Assembly (NCBI GenBank): GCA_019694335.1
Contig: JAIBCD010000012.1
Location: 1 to 64,000, forward strand
Length of the DNA stretch: 64,000 nt
Source: Rhodospirillaceae bacterium
GTDB lineage: Bacteria; Pseudomonadota; Alphaproteobacteria; Rhodospirillales; Rhodospirillaceae
Reading direction: 5' to 3'
Part shown: positions 9,560 to 53,507 of the stretch, piece after piece
Position numbering within the stretch: position 1 is the first letter of the stretch
Layout of the letters: the number at the start of each line of letters is the position of its first letter
Program-made: the position numbers and the translations under genes
The notes under the pieces: generated by a model
The model's database searches: none
Told to the model about the DNA's origin: nothing
Seen by the model: the letters and a program-made list of their open reading frames with translations, nothing else

Positions 9560-10033
9560 ATGCGTTGTCCCTATTGCGGGCATCTCGATACACAGGTGAA
9601 GGACTCCCGTCCGACAGACGACAATTCCGCCATCCGGCGGCGGCGGTCGTGCCCGGCCTGCGGCGCGCGGTTCACCACCTTCGAACGCATCCAGCTGCGC
9701 GAGCTGACGGTCGTCAAAAAGAACGGCCAGCGCACCCCCTTCGACCGCGACAAGATCGCCCGCTCGATCATCACCGCCTGCCGCAAACGTCCCGTGGACG
9801 AGGAGCGCATCGAGCGCGTGGTGAACTCGGTCCAGCGCCGCCTGGAGAGCATGGGCGAGTCCGATATCCCGTCCCACGCGATCGGGGAAATGGTGATGGA
9901 AGCCCTCCAGGGCCTCGACAAAGTGGCCTATGTCCGCTTTGCCTCGGTCTATAAAAATTTCCGTGAAGTCAGGGACTTCGAGAACTTTGTTGAATCTCTG
10001 GCTGAACCTGGATCCCAAGACCAGAACGTGTGA
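9560..10033 (+). CDS. nrdR: Transcriptional repressor NrdR
   Basis: NrdR senses ATP/dATP and represses ribonucleotide reductase genes by binding NrdR boxes. The 157-residue protein starts with a zinc ribbon (MRCPYCGH and [15 protein letters not shown], four cysteines), followed by an ATP-cone domain ([34 protein letters not shown]). Its stop TGA shares one base with the ribD start (TGATG at 10031-10035), so translation is probably coupled. The position before the riboflavin genes is conserved in this class. Confidence 0.97.
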
Positions 10034-11130
10034 TGGCCAGCGGGAAGGAGGCTGACGCCGCCTTCATGGCCGCGGCCCTGGCGCTCGCGGCCCGCACCAT
10101 CGGCGATTGCGCCCCGAATCCTTCCGTCGGCTGTGTGCTGGTGAAGGACGGCGTGGTGGTCGGCCGCGGCTGGACCCAGTCCGGCGGACGTCCTCATGCC
10201 GAGACGCAAGCGCTGGCCCAGGCGGGCGCCGCCGCCAGGGGGGCGACCGCCTATGTCACCCTCGAACCCTGCAGCCACCACGGCAAGACCCCGCCCTGCG
10301 CCGATGCCCTGATCGCGGCCGGCGTCGCCCGGGTGGTTTCCGCTGTCGGTGACCCCGACCCGCGCGTTTCGGGCAGCGGGCTGGCCAAGCTCCGCGCCGC
10401 CGGGATCGCGGTGGAGGAGGGCGTGGGCGCGGCCGAGGCCGCCCGCATCGCCGCCGGGTTCTTCCTCCGGATCAAGGAAAAGCGCCCGCTGTTCGCCCTC
10501 AAGATCGCCACCACCCTGGACGGGCGCATCGCGCTCGCCAACGGCAAGAGCCAGTGGATCACCGGCCCGGCCGCGCGGAATCTGGTGCAGGCCTTGCGCG
10601 CCCGCTTCGACGCCATCTTGGTCGGGTCGGGCACCGCGCTGGCGGACGATCCGCTGCTGACCTGCCGGTTGGAGGGGTACACCGGCCGCCCCAAGGTGCG
10701 GGTGATCCTGGACCGGCGCTTACGTTTGGCGGCGACCTCGCAACTGGTGAAGACGGCCGGGGTGTTTCCCACCTGGGTGATCACGGGCGGGACCGCGAAA
10801 GCCGATGCGTTGAAAGCCGCCCAGGTCGAGGTGATCGAACTTGGCATGGGGCTCAACGATCATGACTTCATACTCGCCGCCGCGCGCACCCTGGCCGAAC
10901 GCGGCCTCAACCGCGTCCTGATCGAAGGCGGCGCCGCCATCGCCGGGGCGTTCCTGAAGGCCGGCCTCGTCGACCAGGCCGCCTGGTTCCGTGCCCCCGC
11001 TGTCATCGGCGGCGACGGCCTGGGCGCGGTTTCCGACCTCCAGGCCACCGACCTTGCCGCCATAACCCGTTTCAAACGCAGGGAAACCCTGTCCCTGGGC
11101 GACGATCAGGTCGATTTTCTCGAGAGGTAG
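10033..11130 (+). CDS. ribD: Bifunctional riboflavin deaminase/reductase RibD
   Basis: RibD performs the second and third steps of riboflavin synthesis: deamination of the pyrimidine and reduction of the ribosyl side chain. The N-terminal deaminase (about 1-145) shows the zinc motif HAETQAL with PCSHHGKTPPCADALI. The C-terminal reductase contains KIATTLDGRIA, SQWITGPAARNL and RVLIEGGAAIAGAFL. I start at the ATG at 10033; a GTG three bases earlier is in frame but adds only one residue. Length 365 fits. RibE follows after 40 bases. Confidence 0.96.
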   Translation: MASGKEADAAFMAAALALAARTIGDCAPNPSVGCVLVKDGVVVGRGWTQSGGRPHAETQALAQAGAAARGATAYVTLEPCSHHGKTPPCADALIAAGVARVVSAVGDPDPRVSGSGLAKLRAAGIAVEEGVGAAEAARIAAGFFLRIKEKRPLFALKIATTLDGRIALANGKSQWITGPAARNLVQALRARFDAILVGSGTALADDPLLTCRLEGYTGRPKVRVILDRRLRLAATSQLVKTAGVFPTWVITGGTAKADALKAAQVEVIELGMGLNDHDFILAAARTLAERGLNRVLIEGGAAIAGAFLKAGLVDQAAWFRAPAVIGGDGLGAVSDLQATDLAAITRFKRRETLSLGDDQVDFLER

Positions 11131-11170
11131 GGGTATACCCCAGCCGGCTTTCCTCCCTATGTGAGGGTTC

Positions 11171-11761
11171 ATGTTTACCGGCATTGTCACCGACCTCGGC
11201 ACGGTCCTGGATTCAGCTCAAGGCGCCGCCGCCGTGCGCTTCCGTATCGGCACGGCCTATGCCACCGAAACCATCGCGCTGGGCGCCTCGATCTCCTGCA
11301 ACGGCTGCTGCCTGACGGTGGTGGAAACCGGGGCCGGCTGGTTCGCGGTCGATGTTTCGCGTGAGACCCTCGACCACACCACGCTGGGCGACTGGCGCGC
11401 CGGCCGGCGCGTGAACCTGGAACGCGCGTTGAAAGCCGGCGATGAACTCGGCGGCCATATCGTCTCGGGCCATGTCGATGCCGTCGCCGCCATTGAATCC
11501 ATCACCCCGGAAGAGGGCTCGCAGCGCTTTGTGGTCGCCGCGCCGGAAGGCCTCATGCGCTTCGTCGCGCCCAAGGGCTCGGTCACCCTCGACGGCGTAT
11601 CGCTGACGGTGAACGAAGTGAAGGCCAATACCTTCGGCGTGAACATCATCCCGCACACCCAGGCCGTGACCACCTTCGGCGCGTTGGCGCCGGGCTCCCG
11701 GGTCAACATGGAAATCGACGTCATCGCGCGCTATGTTGCGCGCGTACTGCAACCGAGCTGA
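11171..11761 (+). CDS. ribE: Riboflavin synthase alpha chain
   Basis: The enzyme dismutates two lumazines into riboflavin. The two similar half domains are clear: MFTGIVTDLGTV with GASISCNGCCLTVV and FAVDVSRETL in the first, and GGHIVSGHVDAV with SVTLDGVSLTVNEV in the second. The Cys in the N-terminal half (SCNGCCLTV) is where other family members carry theirs. Length is 196 residues. It is separated from ribBA by three bases, so the two form one transcription unit. Confidence 0.97.
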   Translation: MFTGIVTDLGTVLDSAQGAAAVRFRIGTAYATETIALGASISCNGCCLTVVETGAGWFAVDVSRETLDHTTLGDWRAGRRVNLERALKAGDELGGHIVSGHVDAVAAIESITPEEGSQRFVVAAPEGLMRFVAPKGSVTLDGVSLTVNEVKANTFGVNIIPHTQAVTTFGALAPGSRVNMEIDVIARYVARVLQPS

Positions 11762-11764
11762 GCC

Positions 11765-12892
11765 ATGCCCGATACTTCCGCCAAGGCCGTCCACGCCGAT
11801 TTCCTGTCCTCGATCGAAGAGATCATCGAGGATGCGCGCAACGGCCGAATGTTCGTGCTGGTGGACGACGAGAACCGCGAGAACGAGGGCGATCTCGTGA
11901 TTCCGGCGCAGATGGCGACGCCGGAGGTCATCAACTTCATGGCCAAGTACGGGCGCGGGCTGATCTGCCTGTCGCTCACCAAGAAGCGGGTCGAGGATCT
12001 GCGCCTCCCGCTGCTGCCGGCCCATAACCAGTCCAGGCTTTCGACGGCCTTTACGCTGTCAATCGAAGCCAAGCACGGCGTCACCACCGGCATCTCGGCC
12101 GCCGATCGCGCGCGGACCGTGGCCGTGGCGATCGACCCGGGCAGCAGCCACGCGGACCTCGCGACGCCAGGGCATGTGTTCCCGCTCATGGCGCGAGACG
12201 GCGGTGTCCTGGTGCGCGCCGGCCATACCGAGGCCGCGGTGGATATCTCGCGGCTCGCCGGACTGATTCCGGCGGGTGTGATCTGCGAGATCATGAACGA
12301 CGACGGCTCCATGGCGCGGCTTCCGGACCTGGTGAAGTTCGCCCAGTTCCACGGCCTCAAGATCGCCACCATCGCCGACCTGATCGCTTACCGCCGCAAG
12401 ACCGAACGCCTGGTGCAGATGGACGCCGAGGCGCCGTTCCAATCGCAGGTCGGCGGCGACTGGAAGCTGCGCATCTATTCCGATGCCGTGTCCGGCGACG
12501 AGCATGTGGCGCTGATCAAGGGCGAGGTGGCGACCGACGCGCCGGTGATGGTGCGCATGCACCAGCTCAACATGCTGCCCGACGTGCTGATGGACGCCGG
12601 CTCCGTGCGCACCGGCGATCTGCGCGCCGCGCAGGAGATGGTGGCTGAGTACGGGCGCGGCGTGATCGTGTTCTTCCGCGACCATGTGCTCGGCAAGCTG
12701 TCGGACCGCGTGAAGGCCAAGGCCCGGGGCGAGGAACATACCCGCCGTCTGGTGGACTACGGCGTCGGCGCGCAGATTCTGGTGGATCTCGGCGTCAAGA
12801 ACATGATCGTGCTCACCAATACTTCGAAGAAGGTGGTGGGCCTCGAAGGCTACGACCTGCACATCGTCGAGCAGCGGCCGATCAAGGCTTAA
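11765..12892 (+). CDS. ribBA: RibBA: 3,4-DHBP synthase fused to a GCHII-like domain lacking zinc cysteines
   Basis: Residues 1-205 form dihydroxybutanone-phosphate synthase: DDENRENEGDL (acidic metal loop), MAKYGRGLICLSL, SIEAKHGVTTGISAADRA, and HVFPLMARDGGVLVRAGHTE. This half should be active. The rest resembles GTP cyclohydrolase II, but where that enzyme has its zinc-binding cysteines this protein reads RMHQLNMLPDVLMDAG and contains none. I infer that the C-terminal half cannot act as a cyclohydrolase and that a separate ribA must exist elsewhere. Such degenerate fusions are known in alphaproteobacteria. It ends the first part of the flavin operon. The next gene is on the other strand. Confidence 0.92.
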   Translation: MPDTSAKAVHADFLSSIEEIIEDARNGRMFVLVDDENRENEGDLVIPAQMATPEVINFMAKYGRGLICLSLTKKRVEDLRLPLLPAHNQSRLSTAFTLSIEAKHGVTTGISAADRARTVAVAIDPGSSHADLATPGHVFPLMARDGGVLVRAGHTEAAVDISRLAGLIPAGVICEIMNDDGSMARLPDLVKFAQFHGLKIATIADLIAYRRKTERLVQMDAEAPFQSQVGGDWKLRIYSDAVSGDEHVALIKGEVATDAPVMVRMHQLNMLPDVLMDAGSVRTGDLRAAQEMVAEYGRGVIVFFRDHVLGKLSDRVKAKARGEEHTRRLVDYGVGAQILVDLGVKNMIVLTNTSKKVVGLEGYDLHIVEQRPIKA

Positions 12893-12903
12893 GCGGGTAA
12901 AGT

Positions 12904-14139
12904 TTAAACCGGCTTCGCCGCCAGCGTCCGCAAAGTGCGGAAGTGGCTGACGACCGTCTCCCGGTATGTCTCATAGAGATTGTACGGCAGGCCATGTTCC
13001 TGCGCGGTGCGCCGGACGATGGCGCTGATCGCCGGGTAGTGCGTGTGGCTGATCTGCGGGAACAGGTGGTGTTCGATCTGGAAATTGAGTCCCCCGGAGA
13101 ACCAGTTCAGCACATGGTTGCTGGTGGCGAAATTCACCGTGGTGCGTAGCTGGTGGGCCGCCCATTCGTCATTGATGCAAAAAGTCCCGCTGCACGGCGC
13201 CGGAAACTCGGCCTTCTCGATGGCATGCGCCAGGTTGAACACCAGGGTCAGTACCAAGCTTAGGATCACGTGAAAGATCAAAAGGCCGATCACGACCTGG
13301 CCGGCGGGAAACAACGCGAACGGCAGGCCGACGAACAGCGCCAGATAAAACGCCTTCGCGCTCCAGAACTCCCACTTCTCGCCGGAGGACATGCCGGGGA
13401 TCGCCTGGTAGGAGTTCATGCGTAGCGAGAAGTATTGGACGAAATCCTTGATGAACAGCCACTCTATGGTGGCGAGGCTGTAGGCGAAGCCGAACCAGAC
13501 ATGCTGGTGCCGGAACTTGGGCTGCCACGGCTGGCGCGGCGACAGGCGCAAGGAGCCGCGGGTCTCGATATCGTCGTCCCACTCGAAAATGTTGGTGTAG
13601 TGGTGATGCAGGACATTGTGCTTGTACCACCAGAAGTACCGCCCGGTGCCGAGCACGGCGCAAGTCAGGTGACTGAGCAGGAGATTGGTGCGCCGGCTCG
13701 ACGAGAACGAGCCATGCACGGCGTCATGGAACACGTTGAAGCCCAGGGCGCCCGCCGAGAAGGCGAAGGACACGCACAACAGGGCGCGGAGGAAGGCGGA
13801 CTCGGTGGTCAGAAGCAGGGCGTAAGACCCCGTGAACCACAAGCCGATGATCGCGGCCTTGCGGTAGAGGCGGGGGTCGTCGCGCCGGTTCGCGCCGGCG
13901 AAATGTTCATCCACCCGCGCGCGCACCGTGGCGAAGAACGCGTTTGGTTCGGTGAAGTGCACGCGCCGCGCGGCACAATCCGCGCGCGCCTGCTCCGGAA
14001 GAGCGGCGTCCGATTGAATTGTCTTATGTCCCCAGCCCCGGCGCGCCGTCTGAGACGCGAAAACGCGCTGTCCCCCGACAGCTGGTGCGAGCCTTACACG
14101 GCGTGGTTCGCTTGGCGATTGATAAAAGTCCCACGGCAT
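12904..14139 (-). CDS. Membrane fatty acid desaturase (front-end/acyl-lipid type)
   Basis: The three histidine boxes of membrane di-iron desaturases are present: HDAVH (138-142), HNVLHHH (174-180), and QIEHH (354-358). The Gln in the third box is typical of front-end desaturases (delta-5 or delta-6 type) and of linoleoyl-CoA-type bacterial enzymes. At least four hydrophobic segments surround them, and no cytochrome b5 domain is fused. The start is uncertain. The ATG at 14139 gives 411 residues, but family resemblance begins near HFTEPNAFF, so a GTG at 13962 (352 residues) is a credible alternative. It begins the accessory block between ribBA and ribH. Confidence 0.85.
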   Translation of the reverse strand: MPWDFYQSPSEPRRVRLAPAVGGQRVFASQTARRGWGHKTIQSDAALPEQARADCAARRVHFTEPNAFFATVRARVDEHFAGANRRDDPRLYRKAAIIGLWFTGSYALLLTTESAFLRALLCVSFAFSAGALGFNVFHDAVHGSFSSSRRTNLLLSHLTCAVLGTGRYFWWYKHNVLHHHYTNIFEWDDDIETRGSLRLSPRQPWQPKFRHQHVWFGFAYSLATIEWLFIKDFVQYFSLRMNSYQAIPGMSSGEKWEFWSAKAFYLALFVGLPFALFPAGQVVIGLLIFHVILSLVLTLVFNLAHAIEKAEFPAPCSGTFCINDEWAAHQLRTTVNFATSNHVLNWFSGGLNFQIEHHLFPQISHTHYPAISAIVRRTAQEHGLPYNLYETYRETVVSHFRTLRTLAAKPV

Positions 14140-14214
14140 GGAATGTCATTATCCTGGCCGCGTTCGAGATGGAAAAAACGCGATAACGCAATCTAGAGAG
14201 GAATCCTCGGAGCC

Positions 14215-14625
14215 ATGAGCCAGATTGCGCAGTGTAGCTGCGGCGCGCTTCGCGCCGAGGTGGCGGGCGAGCCCGATGCGGTGGTGGCCTGCCATTGCAC
14301 GGAGTGCCAGCGGCGCACCGGCTCGGTGCTGGGCGTGGGCGCCTACTACCCGAAGGACCGGGTGAAGATTACCGGCGAGAGCAAGGAATTCGTCCGCGGC
14401 ACCGCGTCCGGCGGCGAATTCCGCCAGAACTTCTGCACCACTTGCGGCACCACTTTATTTTGGAGCACGGCCAATAAACCGGACTCGATCGGCATCGCGG
14501 TCGGGGCTTTCGCCGACCCCTCGTTCGCGCCGCCCGTGCGCTCGGTGTGGGAGCAGACCCATCACGCCTGGCTCGGCCTGCCGGAGGAAATCCCTCACTT
14601 CTCACGTGGCAGAACGGCGACATGA
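14215..14625 (+). CDS. GFA/CENP-V-type zinc protein
   Basis: This 136-residue protein has the cysteine pattern of the glutathione-dependent formaldehyde-activating enzyme fold: CSCGAL at residue 8, CHCTECQRRTG near 26, and FCTTCGTTLFW near 75. Two zinc ions are expected. Most family members are not proven formaldehyde enzymes, so the reaction is open. Its TGA overlaps the ATG of the next gene (ATGA at 14622-14625), which means the two are translated together. Confidence 0.9.
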   Translation: MSQIAQCSCGALRAEVAGEPDAVVACHCTECQRRTGSVLGVGAYYPKDRVKITGESKEFVRGTASGGEFRQNFCTTCGTTLFWSTANKPDSIGIAVGAFADPSFAPPVRSVWEQTHHAWLGLPEEIPHFSRGRTAT

Positions 14626-15107
14626 GCTTCGAGGCGCACCGCATCACCGCCGCGTCCAAGCCGGAGTTCTACCGGCAACTGTGCGATCAGTTGCGTGGGT
14701 TGCTGGCGGGCGAACACGACCGTATCGCCAACGCCGCCAACTGCGCCGCGCTGCTGTTCCAGCACATGCCGGACATCAATTGGGCCGGATTCTATTTCCT
14801 GCGTGAGAATGACGAACTGGTGCTTGGCCCGTTCCAGGGCAAGCCCGCCTGCGTGCGCATCGCCAAAGGCAAAGGTGTCTGCGGCGCGGCGGTGGAGCGG
14901 CGCGCGACGGTGCTGGTGGAGGACGTGCACGCGTTCCCCGGCCATATCGCCTGCGACGCGGCCTCGCGTTCGGAACTGGTGGTGCCGTTGATCGAGCAGG
15001 GGCGCGTGACGGGGGTGCTGGACATCGATAGCCCCATACCCGGGCGCTTCGATGCGGATGACCAAGCGGGTCTCGAACAAATCGCCGCGATTTTCGGCGC
15101 GCCGTAA
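14622..15107 (+). CDS. msrC: Free methionine-(R)-sulfoxide reductase (GAF domain)
   Basis: The protein reduces free methionine-R-sulfoxide using a GAF-domain pocket. All three cysteines of the family are present, in KPACVRIAKG, GKGVCGAA, and GHIACDAAS; the last is followed by SELVVPLIEQG. HMPDINWAGFYFL and GVLDIDSPIPGRFDADD are also typical. The ATG at 14622 overlaps the GFA stop and gives 161 residues, the usual length; the longer in-frame start at 14547 lies inside the GFA gene. The stop codon directly abuts the stop of the convergent repeat-protein gene, with no spacer or terminator. Confidence 0.92.
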   Translation: MSFEAHRITAASKPEFYRQLCDQLRGLLAGEHDRIANAANCAALLFQHMPDINWAGFYFLRENDELVLGPFQGKPACVRIAKGKGVCGAAVERRATVLVEDVHAFPGHIACDAASRSELVVPLIEQGRVTGVLDIDSPIPGRFDADDQAGLEQIAAIFGAP

Positions 15108-16484
15108 CTACCCGATCGCGTGGAACTGGGTGGTGGACATCGCCTGGATCTGGGTGGTCGTGAAGGCCGCGATCTGCGATGTGCCCAGGCCGCGCAGCGC
15201 GGTCGGGGTGAGGCCCTGGATCTGGGTCGTGGACAAAGCCGCGATCGCGGAAGCCGACAGACTCTTGATCTGCGTTGAACCCAATGCCGCCAGCTGCGTA
15301 GCGGTGAATTGCGCGATTTGGCCGGTGGCCAGGGCGCCGATCTGGGACGCGCCCAGGCCGGCGACCTGCCGGGTCGAGAGCGCGGCGATCTGGGCGGAGC
15401 CGAGCGCGGCCACGCCGGTCGAGGTCAAGGCCCGCACCTGAGTCGTCGTGAGGTTGGCGATCTGCGCCGTGCTGAGCGCGCGGATGTCGGCGCCGTCGAG
15501 CGCCGCGATCTGGCTGGTCTTCAGGGTGCGCAGCTGCGTGGCCGAGAGCGCCGCCAGCTGCGTGGACGCGAGCGCCTTCAGCGCCGTGGAGGAAAGCGCC
15601 TGGACCTGCGTTGAACTCAACGCCGTGATCTGCGATGGCGTGATGGCCGCGATGCCGGTGGTGCCGAGGCCGGCGATCTGGCTGCTCTTGAGCGCGGCGA
15701 CTTGCGTGGTGGTAAGTCCGGCGATCTGCGTGGGCGCGATGGCGTTGAGCTGGCTGGTCTTGAAGGCGCCGATCTGCGTGGTGGTGAGACCGCCGATCTG
15801 CGTGGGGGTAAGGGCGGCCACGGCGGTGGTGTCCAGCACGCGCGTCTGGGTGGTGGCGAGGCTCGACAGCTGCGTCGGCGTCAGCGCCTTCAACGACGTG
15901 GTCGAGAAATTCGACAGCTGCGTTCCCGTCAGCGCGGTGATCTGCGTGGTGGTGAGCGCGCCGGCCTGGGTCGGCATCAAGGCCTTGACGCTATCGGTGT
16001 TCAGGCCGCGGATCTGGTCTGGCGTGATGGCCGCGATCAGGTTGCTGGCCAGGTTGATGATCTGGGTCGATGTCAGGCCCGCGATTTGCGTGCGGTCGAG
16101 GGCAGCGATCTGGCTGGGAACCAGGCCGCCGATCTGCGATGGCGTCAGTTGCGCGATCTGGGTCGAGGCGAAGCCCTTGAGCTGGGTGGGCGAGAGGTTG
16201 GCGACCTGGGTGGAGGTCAGGCCAAGGATCTGCGTGCGGTCCAGGCCCGCGATCTGGCTGGGGACCAGCGTGCCGATCAGCGTGGGCAGGAGTGTCCCGA
16301 TTTGCGTCGGCACAAGCGTGCTGATCTGCGTCGGCACGAGCGTACCGATCTGTGTCGGCACAAGGGCCCCGATCTGCGATGGCGTGAGCGTGCCGATCAG
16401 GCCGGTGCTGGAGCCGCCGGTCTGAGTCGACGTATTGCCGAGGAGGCCGCCGGGTAGTGGATCGATCTGTGGTGGCAGCGCCAT
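15108..16484 (-). CDS. Protein of 53 perfect-register octapeptide repeats, unknown function
   Basis: After a 33-residue Gly/Pro/Thr-rich head (MALPPQIDPLPGGLLG...), the whole remaining chain is 53 consecutive 8-residue units without one insertion or deletion, ending with a single Gly (33 + 424 + 1 = 458). The consensus is [TS]-x-[TS]-Q-[IVL]-x-x-[LF], for example VPTQIGTL, TTTQVAAL and GTSQIAAF. Gln is at position 4 in most units. There is no signal peptide, membrane segment or cysteine, and the chain is very rich in Thr and Ser. The S/T-x-x-Q pattern resembles a helix-capping box, so a stacked solenoid of short turns is one possible fold. That is inference. The gene is downstream of, and read with, the glycosyltransferase gene (132-base gap). 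The opposite strand is also partly open (15448-16425), but only this strand is open throughout. Confidence 0.75.
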   Translation of the reverse strand: MALPPQIDPLPGGLLGNTSTQTGGSSTGLIGTLTPSQIGALVPTQIGTLVPTQISTLVPTQIGTLLPTLIGTLVPSQIAGLDRTQILGLTSTQVANLSPTQLKGFASTQIAQLTPSQIGGLVPSQIAALDRTQIAGLTSTQIINLASNLIAAITPDQIRGLNTDSVKALMPTQAGALTTTQITALTGTQLSNFSTTSLKALTPTQLSSLATTQTRVLDTTAVAALTPTQIGGLTTTQIGAFKTSQLNAIAPTQIAGLTTTQVAALKSSQIAGLGTTGIAAITPSQITALSSTQVQALSSTALKALASTQLAALSATQLRTLKTSQIAALDGADIRALSTAQIANLTTTQVRALTSTGVAALGSAQIAALSTRQVAGLGASQIGALATGQIAQFTATQLAALGSTQIKSLSASAIAALSTTQIQGLTPTALRGLGTSQIAAFTTTQIQAMSTTQFHAIG

Positions 16485-16616
16485 GGTTCCCCGCGCCCAA
16501 GCTAATCCGCTGTTTTATCGCGGGCAAAATGCATCCGGCAATGATTTTGGCGGCTCCCGGCCGCGGCCCAACCGGGAGTGTCGGAGCGGCCTATATCGGC
16601 ACAAGCGGCGGGAGGC

Positions 16617-18368
16617 CTAATGCGCCCGGGCCTCGTGCATGCCTGTGTAGGCGGCCTCGATATTGCGGGTGAAGGCGTCGGTGTCGAACAGCGGCGCGGT
16701 CGCGCGGGTCGCGATCAGGTGGTCCTTCAGCGCCTGAAGGCGCGTGGGATCCTGGGCCAGGGCGATCGCCAGGGTTTCATACTCCTCGAGCGTCGGCGCG
16801 GCCAGTTCGGGCAGGCCCACGGCGGTGAGCAGGCTGGCGGCGACGCGCGCCGGGAAACTCTCGCCCGGACAGGTCACCAGCGGCACGCCGACCCACAATG
16901 AGTCGCTCGCGGTGGTGTGGGCGTTGTAGGGCAGGGTGTCCAGGAACAGGTCGGCGAGCTTGTGGCGGGCGAGGTGTTCGTCGGGCGGGATGCGCGGCGC
17001 GAAGACGATGCGCGCGGGGTCGAGGCCGAAGGCGGGCGCGTTGCGCTTGAGGTTGGCGGCGGCCTGGGGGTTGTCCTCGATCAACCACAGCACGCTGCCC
17101 GGCACGGCGTTCATGATCCGCGCCCACCGCGCGAAAATGCCCGGCAGGATCTTGAAGTTATTGTTGAAGCAGCAGAACACGATGCCGGTCTCGGGCAACC
17201 CGGCCTCGGCGCGGGTGTAGGCGCGCTTCGACACCGCGCGTTTGCGGTCGTTGCACTGATAGCTGCCGGGCAGGTTCACGACTTTCTCGGTGTAGAACCG
17301 CTTGTGGCTCTCGGGGATCACCACGCCGTCGGCGATGATGTAATCCATGTAGGGGGTGCCCATGGTGCCGGGGAAGCCCAGGTAGTTCACCTGCACGGGC
17401 GCGGCGCGGTGGGCGAAGATGCCGATGCGGTTCTGCAGGGTGAAGCCCTTGAGGTCGATGGCGATGTCGATCTCGAGGGTGCGGGCGAGGGCGGCGATGT
17501 CGCGGTCGCTGCGCGCGCGCACGTCGAGGTAGCGGGTGCAGCCGGCGGCGATGCGCTGCTGCATGTCGTCGCCGGTGTCGTCGCCGAAGGAGAAGGCGAT
17601 CACCTCGAACTTGGCGCGGTCATGGCGCTCGAACAGCTCGGCGATCAGATGCGCGGTGGCGTGGCGATGATAATCGGCGGAGAAATAGCCGAGTTTGATG
17701 CGCTGGTGGCCGGTGTAGGTCTTGAGTGGCCCCAGCGCCGGCACTTCCGGGCATTTGGTCCGCATCCACCGTTCCATGACCTGGCGCTTGAGCGCGGCGT
17801 CGTCGGTCAAGGCCAGCAGCGGCCACGGCGGCGTGGCCTGCACGCCGCGCTTGACCGCGTCGAGCAGCGCCGCGATCTCGGGTTCCAGGTTCACCCAGTC
17901 GCAGACGTGGACTTTATTGAGCAGCCTGATGCCCGCGACGTCGGGGAAGTCGGGGGCGAGTTGCAGGCAGCGGTCGAAACAGGCGTTGGCGGCCGCCGGC
18001 TGCTGCAGCTCGGTCAGCACCATGCCGCGGTTGCTGTGGGCATTGGGGTTGTGGGGATCGAGCGCCACGGCCTTCTCCAGGCTCGCCAGCGCCGCGTCGT
18101 GGCGGCCCATGTCCCTGAGCACCATGCCGCGGTTGATATGCGCCGAAGCAAAAAATGGATCGAAACGGATCGCGGTCTCGAAGGACTGCAGCGCGGCGGC
18201 CTGGTTGCCCGCGCCGTAGAGGCATAGCCCAAGGCCGTTGTGGGCCGGGGCAATATTGGATGCCTGTTGCAATATCCGCTCGAACAGGCGGCCGGCCTGT
18301 TGGAGGTCGCCGTTCCGGTAAAACGCCGTGGCCTCGATGTAGAGCCGCTCGAGTTCCTCCGGGGACAT
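16617..18368 (-). CDS. TPR-containing O-GlcNAc-transferase-like glycosyltransferase (GT41 type)
   Basis: Residues 1-170 hold tetratricopeptide repeats (AHNGLGLCLYGAGN, AHINRGMVLRDMGRHDAALA, AHSNRGMVLTELQQ). The C-terminal two thirds match the GT41 catalytic domain: KLGYFSADYHRHATAHLI, DLKGFTLQNR, NYLGFPGTMGTPYMDYII, FCCFNNNFKILP and DTLPYNAHTTASDSLWVGVP. The Lys in NFKILP and the HTT motif correspond to nucleotide-sugar-binding positions in O-GlcNAc transferase. Enzymes of this type glycosylate Ser/Thr of proteins in the cytoplasm; Caulobacter FlmG, acting on flagellin, is a related TPR enzyme. The ATG at 18368 lies two bases after the greB stop. The Thr/Ser-rich octapeptide-repeat gene is the next gene downstream and a possible acceptor. 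Confidence 0.9.
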   Translation of the reverse strand: MSPEELERLYIEATAFYRNGDLQQAGRLFERILQQASNIAPAHNGLGLCLYGAGNQAAALQSFETAIRFDPFFASAHINRGMVLRDMGRHDAALASLEKAVALDPHNPNAHSNRGMVLTELQQPAAANACFDRCLQLAPDFPDVAGIRLLNKVHVCDWVNLEPEIAALLDAVKRGVQATPPWPLLALTDDAALKRQVMERWMRTKCPEVPALGPLKTYTGHQRIKLGYFSADYHRHATAHLIAELFERHDRAKFEVIAFSFGDDTGDDMQQRIAAGCTRYLDVRARSDRDIAALARTLEIDIAIDLKGFTLQNRIGIFAHRAAPVQVNYLGFPGTMGTPYMDYIIADGVVIPESHKRFYTEKVVNLPGSYQCNDRKRAVSKRAYTRAEAGLPETGIVFCCFNNNFKILPGIFARWARIMNAVPGSVLWLIEDNPQAAANLKRNAPAFGLDPARIVFAPRIPPDEHLARHKLADLFLDTLPYNAHTTASDSLWVGVPLVTCPGESFPARVAASLLTAVGLPELAAPTLEEYETLAIALAQDPTRLQALKDHLIATRATAPLFDTDAFTRNIEAAYTGMHEARAH

Positions 18369-18370
18369 GG

Positions 18371-18937
18371 CTAGGCGTTCCCGCCATATCGGATGGCCAG
18401 CACTTCGATCTCCTCCTCGCCCGCGGGCGTGCGGACTTTGACGGTATCGCCCACGCGCGCCTTCAGCAACGCCCGCGCCACCGGCGACACCCAACTCACC
18501 AGCCCGGCGTCGGTGTCGGCTTCATCCACACCGACGATGGTGATCGTGCGTTCGGCGTCGTGGTGGTCGATATAGGTGACGGTGGCGCCGAAAAACACCT
18601 GGGCGTGGTTCTTCTGCAACGCCGGATCGACCACATGGGCGCTCTCGTGGCGCTTGGTCAGGTAGCGGATGCGGCGGTCGATCTCGCGCAGGCGTTTCTT
18701 GCCGTAGATGTAGTCGCCGTTCTCCGAGCGGTCGCCGTTGCCGGCGGCCCAGGACACGATCTCCACCACCTTGGGCCGTTCCACCCGGCGCAGTTGATGC
18801 AGCTCGGTCTCCAGATCCTTGAAGCCTTGCGGGCGGATGTAGTTCTTCGACCCCGCCGGCAACTGATCCGGCGCGTCGCCCCCTTCATCGGTGGCTTCTT
18901 CCTCGGTCTCGGTTTCCTTGGTGAAGGCCTTGCTCAT
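18371..18937 (-). CDS. greB: Transcription elongation factor GreB
   Basis: Gre factors rescue backtracked RNA polymerase by stimulating transcript cleavage. The coiled-coil region RVERPKVVEIVSWAAG, GDRSENGDYIYGKKRLREID and RRIRYLTKR carries the acidic DRSEN tip and the GreB-type YGKKRLREID wording rather than the GreA one. The C-terminal FKBP-like domain ends with VGDTVKVRTPAGEEEIEVL. An acidic, unstructured head of about 30 residues (ETETEEEATDEGGD) precedes the conserved part, which is longer than usual. The start overlaps the MOSC gene stop (ATGA), and the glycosyltransferase starts two bases after its stop, so three genes form one operon. Confidence 0.93.
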   Translation of the reverse strand: MSKAFTKETETEEEATDEGGDAPDQLPAGSKNYIRPQGFKDLETELHQLRRVERPKVVEIVSWAAGNGDRSENGDYIYGKKRLREIDRRIRYLTKRHESAHVVDPALQKNHAQVFFGATVTYIDHHDAERTITIVGVDEADTDAGLVSWVSPVARALLKARVGDTVKVRTPAGEEEIEVLAIRYGGNA

Positions 18938-19647
18938 GCCAGCCACACCTTCATCCCGGGTGCGAGGCCGCCCAGGCGTTCCGGCACGCAATGGACGCCG
19001 ATCTCGTTGTTGAAGTTTTCCACCACCGTGCGCATGAGCGTGGCGTCCCGGGCGGCGGTCTCGGGGTCGACGGTGATGAAGGCGCAGCGCTCGATCGGCC
19101 GGTTGACCTGCAGGCGCACGCCGTTGTCCGGGTCGCCGAAGATCAAGGTTTTGTCGAGCCAATCGCGTTCGCGGCCCGCGTCGATCACGATATTGGGCCG
19201 GAACCGGTCGATGCCGACGGCGGTGCCGTGGGCCGCGCTCAGGTCGTCGATGGTGCCTTGGCCGATCACCGAGACCGGCAGGCTGTCGTGACAGCCGCGC
19301 CCGAGGCGGATCATGCCGACCGCCATGCCGGCGGCGTCCGCGAAGCGCGCGGTCAGGCCGGGCGAGGCGACGTCGAACACCGCGCCATCGGGCGCGGCGA
19401 CCGCCACCGGCGCGGTCTTGGTATCGGCGGCGCCGTAGCGCGCGGTGTACAGCACCATCTCGGCGTGGATGCGCGCGGTGAACCACGGGAAGCGCGAGGG
19501 CGCGGTGGGCTTATGGAAGGCGTATTGCCGGTCGCCGTCGAGGCCCGTGCCGCCGAGCGCGATGCCGTCCAGGGCCTCGCCGCGCATGGACTTGACCGGA
19601 TAGCGGTAGAGGCGGGCGACGCGCCCGATTTCGGTGGGCTGGTTCAC
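18934..19647 (-). CDS. MOSC-domain protein
   Basis: The N-terminal beta-barrel (GRVARLYRYPVKSMRGEAL, GLDGDRQYAF) and a C-terminal MOSC domain (FRPNIVIDA, NRPIERCAFITVDPET, GVHCVPERLGGLAPGMKVWL) identify the family. MOSC proteins bind sulfur or molybdenum cofactor and include molybdenum-dependent N-hydroxylate reductases. The Cys in PIERCAFI is where the family's active cysteine lies. It is 237 residues long. It is the first gene of the MOSC-greB-glycosyltransferase unit and starts eight bases after the amidohydrolase stop. Confidence 0.88.
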   Translation of the reverse strand: MNQPTEIGRVARLYRYPVKSMRGEALDGIALGGTGLDGDRQYAFHKPTAPSRFPWFTARIHAEMVLYTARYGAADTKTAPVAVAAPDGAVFDVASPGLTARFADAAGMAVGMIRLGRGCHDSLPVSVIGQGTIDDLSAAHGTAVGIDRFRPNIVIDAGRERDWLDKTLIFGDPDNGVRLQVNRPIERCAFITVDPETAARDATLMRTVVENFNNEIGVHCVPERLGGLAPGMKVWLA

Positions 19648-19654
19648 GCGAGGC

Positions 19655-21016
19655 TCAATCGCACTCGGCGACGGGGGCGAGGCTGACGCCTTGCTCGGTC
19701 AGCGCCTTGCCGAGGCGCGCGCTGGTTTCGGCCAGGTTGCCGCCCGCGGCGGCGGTGTTGATCGCCACCTGCGCCTTGCACAGCGTGGTCTCTTCGATTT
19801 GCGCCACGCCCAGCGTTTTGAGGTAACCGCCTTGGCCGCTCACGGGCACGCCGTTCACCAGGGTCAGGGTGACATCGCCGGGCGATGCCTTCAGCAGCGC
19901 GTCATAGGGTGCGGCGGCATCGCCATGCAGCAGGAACAGGTCGGCGTAGAGCCCCGGCTTCAAGGCGCCGACCTTGTCGTCGATACGCGCGGTCCTGGCG
20001 GGCACGGCGCTCGCCATCTCGAACAATTGCTTGGCGGTGAACAGACCCTTGAACTGGCCGTCGTTCACCTGTTTGGCGAATTTCAGTTCCGCCAGCATGT
20101 TGGTGCTGCCGGTGGGCGACCAGTCGGGGGCCAGCGCGATGGCGACTTTTTCCGCTGCCGCGTCCGCGACATTGGCGGTTTCCTTGTAGAGTTCCATGTT
20201 GCTGCGCGGCGACCACACCAATGTCGCGCCCGCCGCATGCATCTTGGCGAAGTCCGCACGAGTCAGCGCCACGCCGTGGATCACGGCGGTGCGCGAGGTC
20301 AGCCAGCCCTGTTTCTCCAGTTCCGCGAACTCGGCCCGGGTCTTGGGATCGGAGCGCTGGCCTTCGGCGATATGGATCACCAGAAGATCGGCGTCGCCCT
20401 TCTTCAGGCTCTCGGCCAGGCTGGCGGGTGCGTATTTCACGTCGTCGGGCTGCACGCCGAGCACATTGACCACGCGCTCGGGCCCGACCTTCGCGCCGTA
20501 GAAGCCCGTGAACCAGTCGAGGTTGCGCGCGAGACCGGCGATGCAGGAGATGTCGGTGTCGCGCGGCTGCGAGATGCCGACCATGGTGGTGGTGCCGCCC
20601 AGCAGCTCCTTGAGCTCGACAAAACGGTCGATATCGCAGAAGTGGCCGGGCGCCATGGGCCGGTGCGGATTGGCGATGGCCTTCAGGTAGGCTTCGTCGC
20701 CGCGCCATTCATAGCGGTTGTGATAGGCGTGCGACGGCGTCCAGCGCGGATAGATGTTGTAGAGCGGATGGTTGTGCAGATCGACGAAGCCCGGAAAGAT
20801 GATGTCGGTGGTTTCCAGGGTGCGCGCGGCGGCGAGCGCGGGCTTGGCGGCGGTAATGGAAATGATCTTACCGTGGTCGATCGCCACCCAGCCGCCCGGG
20901 ATCACGGCGTCGGGCGTCACCACGGTGCCTTTGATCACCATGGCCGTGGGCGCGGCGGCCAGGACCGGCGCCGCCCACGCACATAACAGAAGAATCGCCC
21001 ATCCCGCCCGCGTCAT
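19655..21016 (-). CDS. Secreted metal-dependent amidohydrolase
   Basis: The ATG at 21016 gives 453 residues with a clear signal peptide (MTRAGWAILLLCAWAAPVLA). The metal-binding motif of the amidohydrolase superfamily is present as GFVDLHNHPLYN, with later ligands in LLVIHIAEGQR, AVIHGVAL and LAPDWSPTGSTN. The pattern HxH, His, His, Asp fits the guanine-deaminase/chlorohydrolase branch with a single metal. A periplasmic location is unusual for that branch, and I cannot name the substrate. Transcription probably runs on through MOSC, greB and the glycosyltransferase because the gaps are tiny. Confidence 0.88.
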   Translation of the reverse strand: MTRAGWAILLLCAWAAPVLAAAPTAMVIKGTVVTPDAVIPGGWVAIDHGKIISITAAKPALAAARTLETTDIIFPGFVDLHNHPLYNIYPRWTPSHAYHNRYEWRGDEAYLKAIANPHRPMAPGHFCDIDRFVELKELLGGTTTMVGISQPRDTDISCIAGLARNLDWFTGFYGAKVGPERVVNVLGVQPDDVKYAPASLAESLKKGDADLLVIHIAEGQRSDPKTRAEFAELEKQGWLTSRTAVIHGVALTRADFAKMHAAGATLVWSPRSNMELYKETANVADAAAEKVAIALAPDWSPTGSTNMLAELKFAKQVNDGQFKGLFTAKQLFEMASAVPARTARIDDKVGALKPGLYADLFLLHGDAAAPYDALLKASPGDVTLTLVNGVPVSGQGGYLKTLGVAQIEETTLCKAQVAINTAAAGGNLAETSARLGKALTEQGVSLAPVAECD

Positions 21017-21457
21017 TGCCCGGTTCCTTGATCGGTGTCGGACGAGAGTTCCACGCGCGCGCGGGCAGTTCAAGCGCGCTCACATTAAGCCATTGGAAAA
21101 GCGGCTGGTTTACTTCGATCCAGGCGCGCTGCCGGCCGCGGCGGAACCGCCGGGCGGGGCCGGAGGTTAGACCCCCTGTCGCGCCATCTCTGTCCTGAGC
21201 CGCGCCATGCGCAACCACCCTCCGCGCCGCGACGGCGCGGCCGTGATGCCGCGCGATCCGCATGATCGAGGCGTGAGTGTCCGGTCTCCGTTTGAGCCCG
21301 CGCGATGAGGTGGCGCCTGGCCGTGCGTGAGCACTGAATGGCCCTTCCGCCGCGACGTACTACCGGTTGCGGCATGGCAGCCATGATCATTTGCCCGCGC
21401 CGGCCGGCGGACCGACATAAATGTTGCGCGCATGGGGCGCGCGGGACATAAGGAGCC
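21017..21457. other. Intergenic region between divergent amidohydrolase and ribH
   Basis: This stretch of 441 bases contains no coding frame I can support. I looked for a flavin riboswitch before ribH and saw none of its conserved core. The GGAG at 21452-21455 next to the ribH ATG is a plausible ribosome site. Promoters for both flanking genes should be here, but I cannot assign boxes with confidence. Confidence 0.5.
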
Positions 21458-21922
21458 ATGGCCCAGGCCCCCAACATTCTTGTCATCGAAGCGCGGTTCT
21501 ACGACGAAATCGCCGACGACCTGCTCGCGGGCACGAAACGCGTGCTCGAGGCGGCGAACGCCAAGGTCGAGGTGCTGACCGTGCCCGGTATCCTCGAACT
21601 GCCGGCGGCCGCGTCCTTCGCCTTCCACCCATCGCGCCGTCTGTCGCAAACAGGGGGCGGGCAGCGCTATGACGGCGTGGTCGTGCTCGGCTGCGCGGTC
21701 AAGGGCGAGACCGACCACTATGAACATGTCTGCCGCGAGTCCATGAGCGGCGTGCAACGCGTGGCGCTGGATTTCTCGGTGCCCTGCGGTAACGGCATCC
21801 TGACCGTGCCGACCTGGGAGCTGGCGCAGCACCGCGCCGACCCGGAGCGGGGGGACGCCGGCGGCCGTGCCGCCAAGGCCTGCTTGCGCATGATCGCGCT
21901 CAAGCGGGATTTCGGACTTTAA
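21458..21922 (+). CDS. ribH: 6,7-dimethyl-8-ribityllumazine synthase
   Basis: RibH condenses the pyrimidine from RibD with dihydroxybutanone phosphate from RibBA. The family pattern is visible in ILVIEARFYDEIADDLLAG, VPGILELPAAASFAF, VVLGCAVKGETDHYEHVC and NGILTVPTWELAQHRA. The His in the DHYEHV stretch is near the catalytic position. An insertion (HPSRRLSQTGGGQR, about residues 55-68) follows the ELPAA motif, making this loop longer than usual. In related genomes ribH directly follows ribBA. Here about 8.6 kb of other genes intervene. NusB follows after 27 bases. Confidence 0.93.
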   Translation: MAQAPNILVIEARFYDEIADDLLAGTKRVLEAANAKVEVLTVPGILELPAAASFAFHPSRRLSQTGGGQRYDGVVVLGCAVKGETDHYEHVCRESMSGVQRVALDFSVPCGNGILTVPTWELAQHRADPERGDAGGRAAKACLRMIALKRDFGL

Positions 21923-21949
21923 TTTTTTCCAAAAGAGTTTTGTTTCGCC

Positions 21950-22459
21950 ATGACGGACGCGCCGTCCTCCACTGAAGTCCGTGACCCGCAGGGCCGTACC
22001 GCCGCGCGGCTTGCCGCCGCCCAGGCGCTGTACCAGATCGAGGCGTCGCAGAATGCGCCCGACGCGGTGATCAAGGATTTCCTCATGGGCAAGGTCGGCT
22101 CGCTGGCCGTGGTCGAGGACGCCGACACCGCCCAGGAATCCATCGTGGCCCTGGCCGAGTTGGACAGCGAGCTGTTCATCGGCCTGATCCGTTGCGTGCA
22201 GGACCGCGAAGCCGAAATCGACGGCATGATCCGCGAAAGCGTCTCCAAGGACTGGCCTTGGGAGCGCCTGGAAATGATCCTGCGCGCGATCCTGCGCGCG
22301 GGCGTCGCGGAACTCCTGACCCGCACCGATATCCCGCCGGGCGTCACGGTGAACGAGTTCATCGACGTGGCGCATGCCTTCTATCCCGGGCCGGAGCCGC
22401 GCATGGTCAATGCCGTGCTGGACCGCATCGGCAAGGCGCTCGGCCGCTTCGGAAGCTGA
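21950..22459 (+). CDS. nusB: Transcription antitermination factor NusB
   Basis: NusB binds boxA RNA with NusE and helps antitermination in rRNA operons. The 169-residue helical protein begins with a short disordered head, then RTAARLAAAQALYQIEAS, WERLEMILRAILRAGVAEL and TPPGV-like TDIPPGVTVNEFIDVAH, and ends with NAVLDRIGKALGR. The position between ribH and thiL is a conserved arrangement. The thiL ATG follows after one base. Confidence 0.95.
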   Translation: MTDAPSSTEVRDPQGRTAARLAAAQALYQIEASQNAPDAVIKDFLMGKVGSLAVVEDADTAQESIVALAELDSELFIGLIRCVQDREAEIDGMIRESVSKDWPWERLEMILRAILRAGVAELLTRTDIPPGVTVNEFIDVAHAFYPGPEPRMVNAVLDRIGKALGRFGS

Positions 22460-22460
22460 G

Positions 22461-23417
22461 ATGAGCGCTCCGCGATCAGGTGAGTTCGACCTTATCGCGC
22501 GCTTCTTCGCGCCGCTGGCCGGCCCCGGCGCTCTCGGCCTCAAGGACGACGCGGCCCTGGTCAAGCCTTCGCCCGGCTGCGAGCTGGTGCTCACCGCCGA
22601 CACCGTGATCGCGGGCGTGCACTTTCGCGAAGGCGATCCCGCCGACCTGATCGCCAGGAAAGCGCTCCGGGTCAATCTCTCCGATCTCGCCGCCAAGGGC
22701 GCCAGGCCCATCGGTTTCCTGCATGCCCTGACCTTGAACCCGGGTATCGACGATACCTGGCTGGAACTCTATGCGCGCGGCCTGGGCCAGGACGCGCACG
22801 CGTATGGCATGCCGCTCCTGGGCGGCGACACCACCATGAGCCACGGGCCGTTGACGATCACGATCACCGCGCTTGGCGAGGTGCCGGCGGGCGAGGCGCT
22901 GTTGCGGTCCGGCGCGCGGGCGGGGGACGTGGTCTATGTGACCGGCACCATCGGCGACAGCGCGCTCGGGCTGGCCTGTCTCAAGGGCGATCTCTTATTG
23001 CCACGCGAGGACCGCGCGGCGCTGGTGGAGCGCTATCATCTTCCGCGTCCGCGCGTGGATGCGGCGCTGCGCGGCATCGCCAACGCGGCGCTCGATGTCT
23101 CCGACGGATTGGTGGCGGATCTCGGGCATATGGCGGCGGCGTCTCAGGTGGCGATCGTCCTCGATCGCGACGCGGTGCCGCTGTCTCAGGCCGCGCGCAA
23201 GGCCGTGACCAAGGATCCGCGCTTGTGGGAAAGGGTGCTGGCCGGCGGCGACGACTATGAAATCGCTTTCGCCGCGCCGGAAAGCGCCGCTGCGCGCATC
23301 GTATCCGGTGTCCCGCCGATCACCGCCATCGGCCGCGTCGGTGCCGGCAGCGGCGTGACGGTGACAGTGAACGGCACGCCGCTCGCGCTGTCATCGACCG
23401 GATACCGGCACCGGTAG
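22461..23417 (+). CDS. thiL: Thiamine-monophosphate kinase
   Basis: ThiL makes thiamine diphosphate from the monophosphate with ATP. The N-terminus GEFDLIARFF and LKDDAALV, the metal and phosphate motif VLTADTVIAGVHF, LRVNLSDLAAKGARPIGFL, LLGGDTTMS and ALDVSDGLVADLGHM are all family signatures. The ATG at 22461 gives 318 residues; the upstream in-frame starts lie inside nusB. It is the last gene of the ribH-nusB-thiL unit. About 200 bases follow before the next gene. Confidence 0.95.
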   Translation: MSAPRSGEFDLIARFFAPLAGPGALGLKDDAALVKPSPGCELVLTADTVIAGVHFREGDPADLIARKALRVNLSDLAAKGARPIGFLHALTLNPGIDDTWLELYARGLGQDAHAYGMPLLGGDTTMSHGPLTITITALGEVPAGEALLRSGARAGDVVYVTGTIGDSALGLACLKGDLLLPREDRAALVERYHLPRPRVDAALRGIANAALDVSDGLVADLGHMAAASQVAIVLDRDAVPLSQAARKAVTKDPRLWERVLAGGDDYEIAFAAPESAAARIVSGVPPITAIGRVGAGSGVTVTVNGTPLALSSTGYRHR

Positions 23418-23616
23418 CGAATAGCCCCGGCCTCCAGGCCCGCGCGTGTAACTCCGGCGGCCGCGCAGCGCCCCCTCCGTATCAAATGCTTCTTCATGGC
23501 GACGGACGCCACAGAAGCACCCGTCATCGTGAACAACGTGAGGGTGGCCGAAGGCGTTCCGGCGGGAGTAGACTGCGGACAGCTCACAGCCTTTCCGTGT
23601 CCTCTCGCCTCCGGTC

Positions 23617-24126
23617 ATGAAGCGCATCATCGTCATTCTGCTGATTCTGATCCTGGTGGCCGGCGGGGGCGCCGGGGCGCTGATCATGCTGGGGATCGTC
23701 AAGAACCCGTTCGCCCCGCCCCAGGTGGAAATGAGCGCCGCCGAAAAGGCCGCCGACGCGGCCGACAAGAAGAAATTCCAGCCGCCGCCGACCAACTACA
23801 CCCTGATCAAGTTCACCCATGACCTGATCATCCCGGTGCTGATCGACGGCGAGGTGAAGAAGCGCGTCTACTTGACCGGGCGCATCGTGGCGAGTTCGGC
23901 GGGGTCGAAGGCGGCTATCGAAGGCGGCATGAACCGCTTCCTGAACGATGTGATCGGCGACCTGGTGCCGTTCTTCCAGACCTATTTCCAGACCCACGAG
24001 AACGTGGACCTCAAGCTGCTCAAGGAAAAGCTCGTGGAGCACGCCAAGAAAGTTTACGGCGCGGACGCCCAGGACGTCCTGCTGACCAATGTCTTCGAAC
24101 AGGCGGGCAACGGCGCCCCCCGGTAA
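23617..24126 (+). CDS. FliL-like single-span membrane protein
   Basis: The chain of 169 residues starts with one membrane helix (KRIIVILLILILVAGGGAGALIML) followed by an Ala/Lys-rich linker. A periplasmic domain follows with YTLIKFTHDLIIPVL, KRVYLTGRIV and a C-terminus near VLLTNVFEQ. This layout matches FliL of the flagellar basal body and its relatives, which modulate the stator. Sequence agreement is moderate, and no flagellar genes adjoin it. Proteins of this sort between thiL and hppA occur in other alphaproteobacteria. Treat the FliL name as provisional. Confidence 0.6.
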   Translation: MKRIIVILLILILVAGGGAGALIMLGIVKNPFAPPQVEMSAAEKAADAADKKKFQPPPTNYTLIKFTHDLIIPVLIDGEVKKRVYLTGRIVASSAGSKAAIEGGMNRFLNDVIGDLVPFFQTYFQTHENVDLKLLKEKLVEHAKKVYGADAQDVLLTNVFEQAGNGAPR

Positions 24127-24329
24127 GCCTTCCGGGCGTTTCCGCGCGGGCCCTAGACCCCTTTATTCCAGGGGCTTTCCTGTATTCAACGTTGCGTCTT
24201 AGGGGCTGTTCTGGCACTCTCCCGCGCGATTTCCGAGGGATGGCGGGAACAGCCTTTAATCATCTGAATTAATTACTGTTTTCGCTGTTTCAGGCGATCG
24301 CGGCGCAACTCACGACCGACGGGGTAAGC

Positions 24330-53429: not shown

Positions 53430-53445
<16 letters not shown>

Positions 53446-53507
53446 CCGACGCCGCGCCAAAACAAACCGCGGGGGGTCAAATGACCGACGCCGCGCCAAA
53501 ACAAACC
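53430..53507. repeat. Perfect 39-bp tandem duplication across the ntrC stop and ntrY start
   Basis: Bases 53430-53468 are repeated exactly at 53469-53507. Each unit contains GCGGGGGGTCAA followed by ATGACC, so the ntrY start codon, its upstream G-rich context and the first 9 codons are doubled. At the protein level this gives [13 protein letters not shown] followed by [11 protein letters not shown]. The unit is a multiple of three, so the frame is kept. Confidence 0.95.

Follow-up and report, generated by a model that had tools for sequence, protein, structure and literature searches.

Type I adhesins of the LapA/RTX kind are large repetitive proteins exported by ABC-HlyD-TolC systems, and ABC-HlyD exporters read C-terminal signals. 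Another described arrangement is that of HMW1/HMW1B/HMW1C, in which a large surface protein is clustered with its own exporter and with a GT41-related cytoplasmic transferase (PMC3983070). In Caulobacter, flagellins are O-glycosylated in the cytoplasm by FlmG, an enzyme combining TPR and GT-B parts (PMC7591256).

The locus considered here lies in a window of 64,000 nucleotides (the whole stretch of DNA that was analysed) from a Rhodospirillaceae bacterium. Its repeat gene occupies positions 15108..16484 of the minus strand (ATG start, stop included) and encodes a protein of 458 aa, which resembles the ALTTAQ repeat family (Pfam PF20080) in sequence throughout and shares its units of eight residues. 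The membership in this Pfam family and the existence of a sequence relative of solved structure are known already. As to the assignment of ALTTAQ proteins to a cassette of GT41 glycosyltransferase and type I export, no description of it was found among the open-licence papers that the searches listed, and the association of the family with GT41 and with an exporter appears to be new.

The cassettes containing ALTTAQ genes differ from that of HMW1, which employs Sec and a two-partner pore, sugars on asparagine and a non-TPR relative of GT41, in that they comprise ABC-HlyD, a GT41 of the TPR type and a protein with no Sec signal by eye and with a predicted helical-screw fold. The GT41 linked to ALTTAQ genes is similar to FlmG, which also consists of an N-terminal TPR domain and a glycosyltransferase domain and acts on an exported acceptor (PMC7591256); unlike the ALTTAQ case, the acceptor of FlmG is flagellin, exported via the flagellar machine. 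The LapA/RTX adhesins are alike in being repetitive, and all three genes of an exporter of this kind are present at two ALTTAQ loci of Pseudomonas, although scanning the window protein against Pfam gave no RTX or Ig-like family.

Octapeptide array and its gene

The preliminary description of this DNA had reported 53 octapeptide repeats without an indel, and this is borne out: 53 eight-residue units (15114..16385, minus strand) follow each other in a single register from residue 34 to residue 457, preceded by an N-terminal stretch of 33 residues (16386..16484, minus strand). Unit position 8 is L, F, I or M in all 53 units, position 5 is I, V, L, M or F in 51, position 3 is S or T in 45 and position 4 is Q in 42 of them, while position 1 is S or T in only 27. 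The motif proposed initially, [TS]-x-[TS]-Q-[IVL]-x-x-[LF], captured the periodicity correctly, but only 17 of the 53 units match it in full (1000 shuffles of the sequence contain 0.13 such units on average and never more than 2). The self-identity of the array is 0.39-0.42 at lags of 8, 16, 24, 32 and 40 residues and 0.05-0.11 at the remaining lags up to 39.

Directly upstream of the repeat gene, on the same strand and separated from it by 132 bp, is the gene of a TPR-GT41 glycosyltransferase (16617..18368, minus strand; 583 aa, with the start taken from the ortholog), and the convergent neighbour (14622..15107, plus strand) encodes a GAF-domain protein, which marks the syntenic locus in a relative. 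The order MOSC (recognised by eye), GT41, ALTTAQ, GAF is conserved in a genome of the same genus, G656. The window repeat protein is 69% identical to its ortholog there (dN 0.22, dS 1.00, dN/dS 0.22 over 177 codons), the GT41 is 75% identical to its counterpart (dN/dS 0.26) and the GAF protein 91% identical (dN/dS 0.08). The GC content of the repeat gene by codon position is 0.58/0.56/0.90, and its high third-position value together with the dN/dS of 0.22 indicates that the frame is translated and is under purifying selection; the possibility of an untranslated frame, considered earlier, is thus not borne out by the data. The ortholog of G656 is only 182 aa long vs 458 aa in the window, from which it follows that the number of repeats changes quickly between close relatives. 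The length of the unit, described initially as exactly kept, is so within the window array but not family-wide, since the alignment with the G656 ortholog needs a 13-residue gap near the start of the latter.

Beside close homologs of the GAF gene in four other genomes of the genus (G650, G647, G646 and G654), no ALTTAQ gene was found in the stretches available. The open reading frames of the window include no HlyD homolog. A scan of positions 10000-25000 against Rfam gave no match, and a promoter and terminator scan of 14900-18700 gave no excess over shuffles. Elsewhere in the window, we noted a gene whose product combines TPRs with a 2OG-Fe(II) oxygenase domain at the C-terminus (44368-45810, minus strand) and a perfect tandem repeat with a period of 39 and 2.2 copies (53430-53513).

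Family assignment and predicted fold

The preliminary description knew of no named family for the protein, which proved to be wrong. PF20080 (ALTTAQ repeat, ALTTAQ_rpt) matches it with 242.2 bits against a cut-off of 26.4 (E 2e-73), in 15 stretches across the array, and a PDB chain of solved structure, 9zem (HeliScrew4), matches it by sequence: phmmer gave an E-value of 1.2e-16, gap-free over 109 residues and in the same register, and a profile made from 23 sequences gave 7.3e-32. A match of this kind, to an established repeat family for which a structure has been solved, had been named in the preliminary description as something that would refute it, and it has now been found. The HeliScrew4 chain differs in having only 120 aa and, judging by its name and idealised sequence, is probably a design. 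No NCBIfam model matched the window protein above threshold. CAAP1 (PF15335) also matched 43 residues of the array with 38 bits, above its cut-off of 25; as these residues are part of the PF20080 match too, we take the CAAP1 match to be compositional. No function of the ALTTAQ family was found by name in the open-licence literature, and the Pfam name carries none. Phage origin was considered and rejected, as tblastn of 50,697 phage records was negative and a scan of viral contigs produced no confirmed relative; PHROG 15773, of unknown function, matches the repeat protein at E 4.6e-11. Far outside Pseudomonadota, a CDS of 3453 bp with a 28% ALTTAQ-like match is present on the Spiroplasma plasmid CP117533.1.

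When supplied with an alignment (the window protein and 22 segments taken from relatives, picked for an unbroken register), AlphaFold2 placed one short helix in every one of the 53 units, 4-7 and mostly 5-6 residues long (pLDDT 92.8, pTM 0.78), residues 1-8 of the protein having pLDDT below 50. Run without the alignment (pLDDT 80.2), it returned mostly the same helix pattern from about residue 75 onwards, a few of the helices being fused, and its confidence ahead of this point was poor. The structure prediction proposed earlier as a check is, therefore, helical and strand-free, with one helix per unit, and agrees in silico with the solenoid of short capped helices that had been guessed from the sequence. 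In the model made with the alignment, the helix starts at unit position 2 in all units but one, which places position 1 at the N-cap and the glutamine of position 4 at N3; we take these two positions to form an S/T-x-x-Q capping box. Each unit would accordingly form about 1.5 turns of N-capped helix, and successive units would wind into a screw-like rod. For this putative fold of the HeliScrew type, the single helix per unit comes from prediction, and the likeness to 9zem is that of sequence. Foldseek against the PDB gave weak matches only, the best of them being mesothelin (probability 1.00, E 7.5e-6) with a TM-score of only 0.26 on the query, for which we claim no homology; 9zem was not among the 50 matches listed.

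Cassettes in the genome of the window and in the genus

Matches to PF20080 occur on at least five contigs of the window's genome (among the matches listed, of 163). On one of these contigs, C105, the genes of an ABC exporter (PF00664 and PF00005) and of HlyD (PF13437) are followed on the same strand by the gene of a 1533-aa ALTTAQ protein, then by those of a TPR-GT41 and a methyltransferase, and lastly by the gene of another ALTTAQ protein, with 804 aa. The window gene, which encodes a short member of the family, is a further copy lying apart from this cassette. The order ABC, HlyD, ALTTAQ, GT41 is repeated in another genome of the same genus, G080, and all four genes stand in that order at two loci of the ABC-seeded set described below, L238 and L246. 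Both genomes that carry the window-type locus, i.e. the window's own and G656, contain ABC-HlyD-ALTTAQ elsewhere. The genome of the window (4.0 Mb) has 37 GT41 domain matches distributed over many loci.

Linkage of ALTTAQ genes to GT41 glycosyltransferases

The GT41 of C105 was used as the query against 317 genomes of the order, at most three candidates being scored per genome. Among the matches listed, the scores form a group above 600 bits and then drop below 500. An ALTTAQ ORF was present within 1.5 kb at 26 of the 30 best-scoring GT41 loci and at none of 20 lower-scoring ones (Fisher p 2e-10, which is indicative, since the rows are related). As for the four exceptions, one starts 526 bp from a contig end, and another is the second of two GT41 genes in tandem, the first of which comes after an ALTTAQ gene. 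Of 20 longer regions (16 belong to loci of the best-30 set), 17 had ALTTAQ and GT41 directly adjacent on the same strand, with a median gap of 21 bp; in the non-adjacent ones, ALTTAQ was located 6.5 kb downstream (G634) or about 10 kb away (G642), and for the GT41 of G643 it was not found in the stretches read. ABC together with HlyD was found in 0 of 20 GT41-seeded regions, and apart from the GT41 cluster no other neighbour was conserved in more than 3 of 32 loci. Tandem pairs of GT41 genes of the clade described below directly follow the ALTTAQ gene at L126, L133 and L134.

In a tree of 64 GT41s, the 31 rows (27 loci) labelled as linked, with G643 and G634 counted among them, form a single clade together with one control row (100/100), and the label requires 2 changes vs 21.6 in shuffles, although some of the rows were chosen for their score to the C105 GT41, a choice that by itself favours a single clade. 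All 16 rows that were reached from the opposite side, namely from ALTTAQ proteins of named records (L015, L023-L025 and the plasmid loci), lie inside this clade, and the control GT41 found in it (L078) has ALTTAQ ORFs at 2.2 and 7.5 kb, beyond the flank of 1.5 kb. The GT41 of the window is placed outside the linked clade, in the other half of the tree, and ALTTAQ was found within 1.5 kb of none of 29 of its homologs (G656 being absent from that search). The content of Ser/Thr per unit was 2.36 in linked and 2.03 in unlinked proteins, with kinship uncontrolled; this difference being small, it was set aside as a test of glycosylation.

Linkage to type I exporters

The search with the ABC protein of C105, again with at most three candidates scored per genome, yielded at least 17 members of the C105 type at 960 bits or more, followed by scores of 780 or less (among the matches listed). 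Two of the 17 are those of the C105 and G080 cassettes. At the remaining 15 loci, the order ABC, HlyD, ALTTAQ was observed in 13; the other two lie on contigs that stop 123 and 561 bp past the HlyD ORF. None of five stretches around lower-scoring ABCs contained ALTTAQ (Fisher 13/15 vs 0/5, p 0.001).

From 57 matching named records, 21 plasmid loci were picked by hand for spread; they include close kin (two Cereibacter, two Thioclava and two Pseudomonas) as well as L173, retained with no repeat ORF counted. GT41 was present in the stretch at 10 of these 21 ALTTAQ loci, and ABC plus HlyD at six, all of them also with GT41 (two Cereibacter sphaeroides, Niveispirillum, Pseudoroseomonas and two Pseudomonas). 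Conversely, 11 of the 21 stood without GT41 and 15 without ABC plus HlyD, as did, respectively, 9 and all 13 (lacking any exporter) of 13 ALTTAQ loci on genome contigs, some of which are cut by contig ends. Thus, only some members of the family have an exporter nearby. The ABC beside ALTTAQ scored above 950 bits to the C105 type in Niveispirillum and Pseudoroseomonas, 742 in Cereibacter HJ and only 189 in the two Pseudomonas, whose loci carry ABC, HlyD and TolC genes.

In a first control of 20 stretches (L136-L155), GT41 was found once, in L136, which was placed near an already known GT41, and ABC plus HlyD not at all; the resulting p-values of 0.004 and 0.02 are overstated, as the control stretches were shorter (15-20 kb vs 14-33 kb for the plasmid stretches) and came from other genomes, those of the window's order. 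A length-matched control of nine 33-kb stretches, taken from nine of the same plasmids, five of which come from records with an exporter-linked ALTTAQ, contained GT41 in one and ABC plus HlyD in one (10/21 vs 1/9, p 0.10, for GT41 and 6/21 vs 1/9, p 0.39, for the exporter). The plasmid set agrees with the cassette but is not decisive by itself, the proof of linkage being provided by the GT41-seeded and ABC-seeded sets.

The exporter of the matched control is a second TolC-HlyD-ABC set on a plasmid of Pseudomonas asturiensis (L258:28340-31415), in a stretch where ALTTAQ is absent; the ABC on the ALTTAQ side of the same plasmid is remote from the C105 type (189 bits). Plasmid pA of Cereibacter sphaeroides 2.4.1, a laboratory strain (NZ_CP030273.1, L163), holds ALTTAQ (DQL45_RS23715), GT41 (DQL45_RS20570), ABC (DQL45_RS20575), HlyD (DQL45_RS20580) and methyltransferase genes together, with dTDP-rhamnose genes a few kb away. 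Methyltransferase genes recur near ALTTAQ loci, and the sugar-nucleotide genes (rfbABCD, UDP-glucuronate decarboxylase, gmd, glf) vary among L156, L159, L162, L163 and L171; the donor sugar may not be the same in all species. The ALTTAQ gene of Pseudoroseomonas (L159:15349-20436) is split over several ORFs with near-identical blocks, which would reflect frameshifts or an assembly error.

Termini of the ALTTAQ proteins

No export signal had been recognised in the preliminary description, and for the N-terminus this stands: the 33 residues ahead of the array show no Sec-type signal by eye, and the ALTTAQ N-termini listed consist of repeats or a short leader with no signal peptide by eye, some of the starts being uncertain or cut. 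The C-terminus, however, bears a signature of the family, and some of its members are linked to ABC-HlyD exporters. Of 59 family ORFs, broken ORFs included, 28 have the pattern F[ST]xxQ[IVLF]xxM within their last 34 aa, vs 37 of 13,034 internal unit pairs; with the four ORFs of loci found by the pattern and the ten ORFs used for devising the motif left out, the count is 15 of 45. The window protein, in its last 20 residues (15111..15170, minus strand), and the ALTTAQ proteins of the cassette in its own genome all end in this signature, a candidate type I secretion signal or end cap.

Proposed pathway and alternatives

The cassettes in which the longer relatives are often found suggest a family of proteins that receive a coat of sugar and are destined for the outside of the cell. 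From gene linkage and structure prediction we infer that ALTTAQ proteins could be substrates of a dedicated pathway, being glycosylated by GT41 and secreted by a type I system, with the window copy served in trans; we lean slightly towards this reading. The chain would be synthesised in the cytoplasm, where the dedicated TPR-GT41 transferase would add sugar to the exposed Ser/Thr residues of the repeats; the ABC-HlyD exporter would then read the C-terminus and pass the chain out, and the chain would fold outside into a glycosylated rod, either secreted or held at the surface. The genome of the window encodes the C105 cassette, so that the window protein would be served in trans by it, possibly together with its own GT41 neighbour. 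The hydroxyl of the N-cap would be partly buried, a point against sugar attachment. The wider proposition that ALTTAQ proteins constitute a distinct class of exported glycoproteins, characterised by a screw fold of tens to hundreds of one-helix units, by a dedicated TPR-GT41 and ABC-HlyD and by short orphans served in trans, is more tentative, and we regard it as quite possible without preferring it.

The neighbourhood of the window gene itself could be read in two other ways. It is rather unlikely, in our opinion, that the protein is an orphan cytoplasmic scaffold, that is a soluble helical rod binding some partner, with the linkage to exporter and GT41 confined to the longer paralogs: the absence of an HlyD homolog from the window, the existence of family members without GT41 or exporter nearby and the mere 182 aa of the short ortholog would fit a scaffold, but the window protein has retained the C-terminal signature of the exporter-linked paralogs, and ABC-HlyD-ALTTAQ is present elsewhere in both genomes with a window-type locus. 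There is a modest chance that the adjacent GT41 is a dedicated modifier of the window copy and represents a second GT41-ALTTAQ pairing, which would be compatible with export in trans. The common strand, the gap of 132 bp and the conservation in G656 of both genes and of the order from MOSC (by eye) to GAF speak for such a pairing, while the lack of ALTTAQ within 1.5 kb of the 29 other homologs of this GT41 and its position outside the linked clade speak against it, and with 37 GT41 domain matches in the genome chance neighbours should not be rare.

The remaining two readings concern the array as such. A leucine-rich-repeat or beta-solenoid protein is hardly tenable: plasmid records of the family do carry the names 'heme utilization' and 'ICE nucleation', and weak LRR matches exist, but the leading LRR family, PF13855, reaches 24.3 bits against a cut-off of 27, the LRR chains of the PDB match the sequence more weakly than 9zem does, the Pfam scan of the window protein gave no haemagglutinin and (up to E 10) no ice-nucleation family, and both AlphaFold2 models contain helices and no strand. 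On these profile scores and models, the LRR and beta-solenoid readings were rejected. It also seems improbable that repeat turnover accounts for most of the array and that the array has little function. The strong difference in repeat number between close relatives (458 vs 182 aa) and the DNA repeats of 24 and 48 bp still recognisable in the gene are what turnover would leave behind; however, the dN/dS of 0.22 over 177 codons, the divergence of units at synonymous sites (pS 0.53) while core positions stay conserved, and the linkage of the family to GT41 and exporter genes argue against it.

Significance for the family

With the proposed pathway, a family annotated up to now as 'heme utilization', 'ICE nucleation' or hypothetical gains a testable function, that of the substrate of a glycosylation and export cassette. 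If it is true, the ALTTAQ cassette would represent the type I equivalent of the HMW1 system, differing from it in fold and in the branch of GT41. A clade of OGT-like enzymes would also gain a defined acceptor, on which Ser/Thr residues recur periodically, and this would help with the question of how OGT-like enzymes choose their substrates. A helical solenoid would, in that case, join the exported rods of bacteria.
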